In this document: positions 47,166-48,596 of the stretch, piece by piece
Layout: every line of letters starts with the position of its first letter
Position numbering within the stretch: position 1 is the first letter of the stretch
DNA from: Donghicola mangrovi
GTDB lineage: Bacteria > Pseudomonadota > Alphaproteobacteria > Rhodobacterales > Rhodobacteraceae
Reading direction: 5' to 3'
DNA: 64,000 bases
NCBI RefSeq assembly: GCF_013377535.1
Contig: NZ_JABCJE010000001.1
Location: forward strand, 744,001 to 808,000
The notes under the pieces: generated by a model
Told to the model about the DNA's origin: nothing
Databases searched by the model: none
What the model saw: the letters and a program-made list of their open reading frames with translations, nothing else
Translations under genes and position numbers: made by a program

Positions 47166-47249
47166 ATAAGGGGTCGATTCCCCTTATGCGCGGTCCGTTC
47201 GCCCCATCGTGGGCGCGAGTTGCCGTCACCTTCGACAAAAAACGGACCG
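47166..47249 (+). ncRNA. Structured 5' leader of the queuosine transporter gene (riboswitch candidate)
   Basis: Three stems: ATAAGGGG-TCGATT-CCCCTTAT (47166-47187); CGGTCCGTT (47191-47199) pairing perfectly with AACGGACCG (47241-47249); and inside that CGCCC-CATCGT-GGGCG (47200-47215). A six-A run (47237-47242) leads into the 3' arm, which ends 5 bases before the ATG and would hide the ribosome-binding region. The gene imports a queuosine precursor, so a preQ1-type ligand is an obvious guess, but I cannot match a known preQ1 class. Confidence 0.5.
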
Positions 47250-47254
47250 ACATC

Positions 47255-47881
47255 ATGAACCGTATCCTACCTGGCGTGATCGCCATGGCAGCCGTTGTGG
47301 TTGCCTCGAATATCCTCGTTCAATTCCTGATCCTCGATGGTCTGCTGACCTGGGGGGCGTTCACCTATCCTGTGGCGTTTCTGGTCACCGACCTGATGAA
47401 CCGTTTCTACGGCGCGGCTGCGGCGCGCAAAGTGGTTCTGGCCGGCTTTGTCACGGGCATCATCTGCTCGCTGATTGGAAGTCAGGTTATGCTAGAGTTC
47501 GGTCCCGCCGTGCCCTTGCGGATTGGTGTGGCGTCGGGGATCGCGTTCCTGATCGCGCAGATGCTGGATATCAGCGTGTTCGACCGTCTGCGCCGTGGGA
47601 TCTGGTGGAAAGCGCCGCTGGCCTCGACCGTCGTGGGGTCGATCGTGGACACTGCCTTGTTTTTCAGCATCGCTTTTTCGGGGTCGATCAGCTTTGGGGC
47701 TGAGGCCGATTCTGCGACCGCTTGGGCGTTGGATTCTATGCCTTTTATGACCTTTGGGGCGGATCAGCCGCTGTGGGTGTCTTTGGCCGTTGCTGACTGG
47801 ATGGTCAAATTTGCCGTCGCTTTGATCGCTCTCGTCCCGTTTCGGATGATTACCGGAAAGTTGAACGCGACTATCCAATAA
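47255..47881 (+). CDS. yhhQ: Queuosine precursor transporter (VUT family)
   Basis: A 208-residue inner-membrane protein with about six helices; YPVAFLVTDLMNRFYG is the family core. YhhQ imports preQ0/preQ1 for tRNA queuosine. I chose the ATG at 47255 (MNRILPGVI); an in-frame ATG at 47186 lies inside the structured leader and would add 23 unlikely residues. No queuosine biosynthesis genes are in the window. Confidence 0.9.
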   Translation: MNRILPGVIAMAAVVVASNILVQFLILDGLLTWGAFTYPVAFLVTDLMNRFYGAAAARKVVLAGFVTGIICSLIGSQVMLEFGPAVPLRIGVASGIAFLIAQMLDISVFDRLRRGIWWKAPLASTVVGSIVDTALFFSIAFSGSISFGAEADSATAWALDSMPFMTFGADQPLWVSLAVADWMVKFAVALIALVPFRMITGKLNATIQ

Positions 47882-47952
47882 TTCTTTTTGACTTCACAAC
47901 AAACTGTGCCACCCTTCTTGTTAGGAGCAACATATTGAAAGGAGGTGGTCCA

Positions 47953-48009
47953 GTGTCGAGAAAGGTATTGGAGCGAGGTGTCGGGACAATTGGGGGATTT
48001 TTCGTCTGA
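47953..48009 (+). CDS. 18-residue peptide upstream of arfB
   Basis: A GTG-started ORF reading VSRKVLERGVGTIGGFFV and ending TGA. Its ribosome-binding site GAAAGGAGGTGGTCC is nearly complementary to the whole 16S 3' tail (one G-T pair), placed 7-8 bases before the GTG, which argues that it is translated very efficiently. The function is unknown. It could be a leader peptide for arfB, or part of a free small RNA. Confidence 0.6.
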   Translation: MSRKVLERGVGTIGGFFV

Positions 48010-48078
48010 GGCAGCCCTTGGGCGCTAGATCACCCTAGTTGGCGACGGCCTAACCGGCCCGCCTCCTGGACTTTCGGA

Positions 48079-48112
48079 GGGCCCCCGTAGCTTCTGCGGC
48101 GGCCCTTTTCCT
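48079..48112 (+). terminator. Strong intrinsic terminator upstream of arfB
   Basis: GGGCC and CCGTAG pair with CTGCGG and GGCCC (48079-48105) with one mismatch, one G-T pair and a CTT loop, followed by TTTTCCTTT. It lies between the small ORF and arfB, so arfB needs read-through or its own promoter. Confidence 0.85.
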
Positions 48113-48116
48113 TTGT

Positions 48117-48149
48117 CGTTTGCCATGTCTGGTTTCCGTATGGCAAACG
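48117..48149 (+). promoter_or_regulatory. Perfect 10-base inverted repeat before arfB
   Basis: CGTTTGCCAT (48117-48126) and ATGGCAAACG (48140-48149), 13 bases apart, sit 33 bases before the arfB GTG. It may be an operator or an mRNA hairpin. Confidence 0.5.
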
Positions 48150-48182
48150 TATGGCTCGCGTCATGACACGAAGGGATGCCCC

Positions 48183-48596
48183 GTGCTGAGGGTTAACGAT
48201 TTCATAACCATTCAGGACTGGGAACTGACCGAGCAGTTCTCGCGCAGTTCCGGCCCCGGCGGGCAGAACGTGAACAAGGTGTCAACGGCGGTCGAACTGC
48301 GGTTCGAGGCCGAGCGCAGCCCCAACCTGCCGGACCCCGTCAAACGCCGATTGAAGAAACTGGCAGGCCGCCGCTGGACACTGGACGGGGCGCTGATCCT
48401 GCGGGTCGAAGACACCCGTTCCCAAGCGCGCAACCGCGAGATCGCGCGCGAACGGTTAACAGACCTGATCGTCAAATCCCTCGAGGCCCCCAAACGCCGC
48501 ATCCCCACCAAGCCCACCAAAGGCTCTGTCCGCCGCCGCCTCGAAGAGAAGAAGCAGCGGGGGGAGGTTAAGGCGCTTAGGGGGAAGGTGGAGTGA
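48183..48596 (+). CDS. arfB: Alternative ribosome-rescue factor ArfB (peptidyl-tRNA hydrolase)
   Basis: A 137-residue protein with the catalytic GGQ motif (SSGPGGQNVNKVSTA, near residue 30) and a basic C-terminal tail (KRRIPTKPTKGSVRRRLEEKK) that enters the empty mRNA channel. It frees ribosomes stalled on broken mRNA, backing up tmRNA. I chose the GTG at 48183, preceded by AAGGGA, which gives the family length; a TTG at 48120 lies in the inverted repeat. A terminator and structured ORF lie upstream. It is convergent with the orphan membrane gene. Confidence 0.93.
   Translation: MLRVNDFITIQDWELTEQFSRSSGPGGQNVNKVSTAVELRFEAERSPNLPDPVKRRLKKLAGRRWTLDGALILRVEDTRSQARNREIARERLTDLIVKSLEAPKRRIPTKPTKGSVRRRLEEKKQRGEVKALRGKVE

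Follow-up and report, generated by a model that had tools for sequence, protein, structure and literature searches.

A candidate rreR-type small mRNA with an internal mimic of the 16S rRNA tail, usually found upstream of arfB in the Rhodobacterales

Introduction

In the 64,000-nucleotide stretch of Donghicola mangrovi DNA analysed here (the window), the short region in front of the ribosome-rescue gene arfB holds a Shine-Dalgarno sequence (SD) complementary to the 16S rRNA tail, an 18-codon ORF, an anti-SD that imitates the 16S tail, and a terminator. The question that this locus raises is what the element is and whether it controls arfB. A first-pass annotation had read it as a terminator switch that senses ribosome availability. 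The element is almost certainly rreR, a gene already known from bacteria related to Rhodobacter. Every sequence named at first pass was present in the window at the position given for it.

Results

Of 61 relatives examined by DNA search, 27 carried the element, all 27 being of the same family, and a pattern scan of named genomes added more than 100 further loci. The named loci belong to Rhodobacterales genera that include Ruegeria, Paracoccus, Cereibacter, Sulfitobacter and Roseobacter. The locus set comprised 144 Rhodobacterales loci, with the window and a few duplicates included, and the 128 distinct elements among them are those with both the 18-codon ORF and the anti-SD. To be picked up by the scan, a named locus had to match in parts of codons 2, 3, 6 and 7, and codons 4–5 and 9–19 were free; conservation in codons 2, 3, 6 and 7 of these loci is therefore a product of selection by the search.

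The element and the two genes beside it lie on the forward strand. The upstream neighbour (47186–47881) belongs to the VUT/YhhQ-like queuosine-precursor transporter family (NCBIfam TIGR00697, 98 bits over the cut-off; its start codon is unsettled). Such a transporter gene was found within 900 nt upstream of the element in 133 of the 144 loci, and seven of the remainder had too little upstream DNA. Behind the transporter gene, a predicted promoter (47888–47915) is composed of TTGACT (47888–47893), a 16-nt spacer and CACCCT (47910–47915), which would place the +1 of the small mRNA at about 47922–47923. A plain consensus scan for this promoter found none in the window; among the relatives, TTGACA-N16-CANNNT was conserved in 98 of 142 loci, mostly 46–51 nt before the SD. 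At the other end of the element, the predicted intrinsic terminator (AGGGCCCCCGTAG-CTT-CTGCGGCGGCCCT followed by a T-rich tail, 48078–48112) has its hairpin at 48078–48106, and a hairpin occupies the same position in relatives. A stand-alone small RNA, which the first-pass annotation had allowed for, is supported by the conserved promoter and by the match to rreR.

The extended SD, GAAAGGAGGTGGTCCAG (47937–47953), complements the whole single-stranded 16S tail, and its core is invariant in relatives. The window's own draft genome was searched for a 16S tail and none was found in it. In a same-genus genome the tail ends in ...GGCTGGATCACCTCCTTTCT, and from this sequence the SD is able to pair over 17 nt, with 16 Watson-Crick pairs and one G-U. 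The near-complete 16S complement seen at first pass is thus borne out, and it is conserved among the loci. To our knowledge, it is rare for the SD of an mRNA to match the 16S tail in full; the SD core here, AAGGAGGTGRTCC, has a single occurrence in the 4.3-Mb genome. Two loci, L027 and L190, have an extended SD with a one-base deletion (AAAGGAGGTGGCCAGTG) and keep the element otherwise.

The ORF (GTG...TGA, VSRKVLERGVGTIGGFFV, 47953–48009) is conserved in length and in the position of its stop codon, with exactly 18 codons in 137 of the 144 loci. Among 119 distinct ORFs the stop was TAG in 48, TGA in 46 and TAA in 25, all at the same position. Single-base differences among these ORFs were synonymous in 70% of cases in codons 9–12 (33% expected), and codons 13–18 showed no synonymous excess (26% vs. 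28% expected). Diverged orthologues (L180, L188, L202 and L203) encode unrelated residues and still have 18 codons, as their peptides MSIGIQEQLVRITCEVRI, MSHGILESVIGTKLETEI, MSSDRSEKMVRFQEEQLV and MVSEISEMAVGTIRGASV illustrate. Going by these patterns in the sequence, we take the ORF to be translated. At two loci the ORF is cut to 12 codons (VSRKGLERGVGT) and the anti-SD is degraded together with it, as if in joint decay. Another two have the extended SD followed by longer, unrelated ORFs of 26 and 31 codons, and look more like the Rfam family CC2171 than like rreR.

Downstream of the ORF lies the anti-SD, CCGCCTCCT (48059–48067), within the 16S-tail mimic ACCGGCCCGCCTCCT (48053–48067). When the 3' region of the window sequence by itself was shuffled, 6.5% of trials gave an equally good partner for the SD, which is marginal for a single sequence, and so the case rests on comparative evidence. 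The 7-bp core of the SD:anti-SD helix pairs in 26 of 26 aligned relatives (25 of 26 at the last position). Across these 26 sequences the anti-SD varies solely between C and T where it faces G, and between A and G where it faces T; its site was found via its CTCC core, so the independent positions are the flanking ones. A 7-mer that pairs fully with GGAGGTG was present in 138 of the 144 loci, compared with 40% of shuffled 3' regions. L184 and L202 have GATCCG at the SD edge and, as anti-SD, CGGATCACCTC, which is nearly identical to the 16S tail; the two form 11 consecutive Watson-Crick pairs, in which an A-U pair at the edge of the SD has been exchanged for G-C by compensatory change. The SD:anti-SD pairing proposed at first pass is upheld by this pair-preserving variation. 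From the conserved 18-codon length, stop position and pairing, together with the compensatory change, we conclude that both the ORF and the SD lock are under selection.

The RNA of the element folded better than 200 of 200 dinucleotide shuffles (z −3.8), and its minimum-energy structure had the SD closed by the anti-SD. In single-sequence ensembles of the aligned relatives the mean predicted SD:anti-SD pairing was 0.69, and it was predicted to be weak or absent in L015, L016, L018, L021 and L027. A second helix, the start-codon hairpin (47949–47972), pairs TCCAGTGT (47949–47956) with GTATTGGA (47965–47972) and covers the GTG. Each of its eight pairs was kept in 87–100% of the 128 distinct sequences, although TTGGAG had been prescribed when the named loci were sought, and the mean predicted probability of the hairpin was 0.68. 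With the SD in one helix and the GTG in another, both are predicted to be masked in the free RNA. A hairpin at the stop codon was plausible in some lineages and not uniform. RNAalifold, run on a first and partly misaligned alignment, favoured other partners for the anti-SD, and paired codons 10–11 with UYUCGR before the terminator and codons 13–15 with the anti-SD. We rejected these pairings because the anti-SD was misplaced in several rows and they carried little weight in single-sequence ensembles, where codons 12–17 paired with the anti-SD at 0.02 on average.

The gene arfB itself (48183–48596, GTG start at 48183; NCBIfam ArfB equivalog NF006718, 181 bits) was found within 500 nt downstream of the element in 105 of the 144 loci and farther downstream, at 0.56–2.9 kb, in 11. 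It was absent downstream in 28, and in 17 of these the sequence available on that side ran to 2 kb or more. Four genomes have arfB elsewhere and an intact element, so control of arfB cannot be the sole role of the element; adjacency to arfB is the usual arrangement, not a constant one. The terminator-to-arfB gap had a median of 34 nt and was at most 35 nt in 49 of 97 loci, a few gaps being misjudged by the terminator finder. In the window, the 66-nt gap that precedes arfB yielded no promoter in a consensus scan. Among the relatives, the 75 nt in front of arfB contained TTGAC at 8 of 105 loci, about the chance rate, compared with 67 of 105 upstream of the small mRNA. Because the gap is short and has no promoter motif like that before rreR, arfB is probably transcribed mostly by read-through of the small-mRNA terminator. 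The first-pass annotation had named, among results that would undo its reading, that all transcripts end at 48112 and arfB is expressed solely from its own promoter; the short gaps and the chance rate of TTGAC suggest that arfB probably has no promoter of its own, and it might have one that lacks a TTGAC box.

Repeats occur in this gap. In the window, a perfect 10-bp inverted repeat (CGTTTGCCAT/ATGGCAAACG) lies at 48116–48150 between the terminator and arfB, and words resembling ATGGCAAACGT occur six times in the window (1.2 expected). Congeners carry variants or tandem copies of this word in the gap, and two further loci have other repeats of ~11 nt there (GTACACACCCC, GTGCACC).

Among Rfam families, the serC leader RNA (RF00517, 30197–30248) was the sole above-threshold match in the window. 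The element aligned over the full length of CC2171, a Caulobacter sRNA (RF01867; model positions 1–159, E 5e-6), with a score of 34.4 bits that lies below the gathering threshold of 75 bits. CC2171-type loci in other alphaproteobacterial orders contain internal 16S-tail mimics such as CTGGATCGTCGCCTCC, and no arfB match was found in the ~1.5 kb flanks examined around CC2171-type loci. Six whole genomes had two or three CC2171-type matches each, and the family can therefore be multi-copy.

Discussion

In the Bradyrhizobiaceae, the gene rreB reportedly has a 17-nt SD, associates with the 30S subunit and is weakly translated. This translation is said to be gated by ribosomes, with altered stability of the small mRNA. 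Its 18-aa homologue in the Rhodobacter/Roseobacter lineage, the small mRNA rreR, is almost certainly the window element. Earlier work on rreB and rreR is not known to treat an arfB linkage or a conserved anti-SD. A literature search found no description of rreB or rreR beyond Hahn et al. 2017. As far as could be checked in literature other than Hahn et al. 2017, the read-through linkage to arfB and the family-wide mimic of the 16S tail are undescribed.

The reading that we favour, and hold to be reasonably probable, identifies the element as rreR and sees in it a small mRNA that ribosomes gate, that a mimic of the 16S tail locks, and whose leaky terminator supplies arfB. By comparison among relatives, rreR would code for an 18-residue peptide on a small mRNA of ~190 nt that has a promoter and a terminator to itself. 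An SD able to pair with all of the 16S tail would bind an arriving 30S subunit very tightly. As long as the RNA is free, the internal imitation of that tail would close the SD, with the GTG held within a hairpin. The 30S subunit and the mimic would consequently compete for one SD, whose pairing with the mimic is shown by conservation. The output would be weak, ribosome-gated translation and a changed stability of the small mRNA, as is reported of rreB. Some polymerases would pass the terminator and yield arfB mRNA, as the spacing and the missing promoter motif suggest. Several observations speak against this reading: the few sequences with weak or absent predicted SD:anti-SD pairing, the 40% of shuffled regions that contain a 7-nt partner, the other anti-SD partners in the RNAalifold run, and the chances that the anti-SD acts in trans and that arfB has a promoter lacking TTGAC. 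An SD that is joined in one RNA to an imitation of its own 16S partner allows a direct test of how a ribosome competes with an rRNA mimic encoded in cis. The arfB linkage, in turn, suggests that this backup gene for ribosome rescue owes its expression to read-through from a ribosome-binding small mRNA.

The alternative that survives best, although we regard it as unlikely, is a trans-acting sRNA whose peptide is incidental and which works either through its CCUCC mimic, by pairing to SDs in other mRNAs, or through its 17-nt SD, by titrating 30S subunits. The conserved anti-SD could act in trans on other mRNAs, and the conservation of both 16S complement and 16S mimic would suit such a role, as would the listing of the family in Rfam as the sRNA CC2171. 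The strict 18-codon length, the use of three different stop codons and the synonymous excess in codons 9–12 favour translation instead.

Somewhat less likely still, the 18-residue peptide would be the functional product, and the RNA features would merely set its dose. Purifying selection on residues 9–12 points this way, whereas the lack of synonymous excess in codons 13–18 and the orthologues with entirely different residues point away from it, and nucleotide-level constraint accounts for part of the first 12 codons.

We are equally doubtful that ribosomes control arfB read-through by a route other than GGAGG, for example through their state on the 18-codon ORF. The order of ORF, terminator and arfB would fit such control, as would the conserved stop position and, at about half of the loci, a gap too short for a promoter. 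Against it, the sole alternative antiterminator found, in which GGCAGCCCTT after the stop codon pairs with the 5' arm of the terminator, showed no co-variation and was rejected after failing a swap test (own pairs −16.05, swapped −16.48 kcal/mol). Ribosome-controlled termination is possible but unsupported. We give similarly little credence to the combined proposal that, with rreR and arfB joined in a single transcription unit across most Rhodobacterales, the state of 30S subunits or ribosomes on rreR sets read-through and a shortage of free ribosomes would thereby raise the rescue factor.

The switch proposed at first pass, in which plentiful ribosomes on the SD free the anti-SD to pair with GGAGG (48076–48080), break the terminator and turn arfB on, with few ribosomes leaving it closed, is highly improbable and its GGAGG mechanism is rejected: the required pairings can be written in the window sequence and arfB is usually the next gene, seemingly without its own promoter, but GGAGG is not conserved (relatives read GGAAGG, CGAAGG, CGAGG, etc.), the anti-SD:GGAGG pairing had a predicted probability of 0.00–0.02 in the ensembles of every sequence, the closed SD and the terminator are present together in the predicted fold so that neither excludes the other, and the element is retained in genomes with arfB elsewhere. 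Among the relatives we found neither a conserved anti-anti-SD that competes with the terminator nor arfB always downstream, as a ribosome-sensing arfB attenuator would have. Of the first-pass interpretation, the ORF, the extended SD, its pairing with the anti-SD, the downstream arfB and the stand-alone RNA are supported; the GGAGG/terminator switch is not.

Compared with known systems, rreR resembles the trp-type leader-peptide attenuators in that a short translated ORF is followed by a terminator and then a gene, and differs from them in that neither regulatory codons nor a conserved antiterminator of the mutually exclusive type were found here. With CC2171 it shares the same 5' box through the GTG, a short ORF, a terminator and, in many CC2171 members, an internal mimic of the 16S tail. 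The ORFs of CC2171 differ, having 18–30 codons and another sequence, and its long-range helix, in which UCAUUGU behind the start codon pairs with the pre-terminator sequence, is unformed here, the UCAUUGU block being replaced. With rreR/rreB the element shares an SD of ~17 nt complementary to the 16S tail, a GTG start, an 18-aa ORF and the same lineage. At least 16 nt of complementarity between the SD and the 16S 3' end would be expected of an rreR/rreB member, and 17 nt including the one G-U were found against the same-genus 16S; a discrete small transcript is predicted from the conserved promoter and terminator sequences. Because every testable feature fits, we assign the element to the rreR kind.
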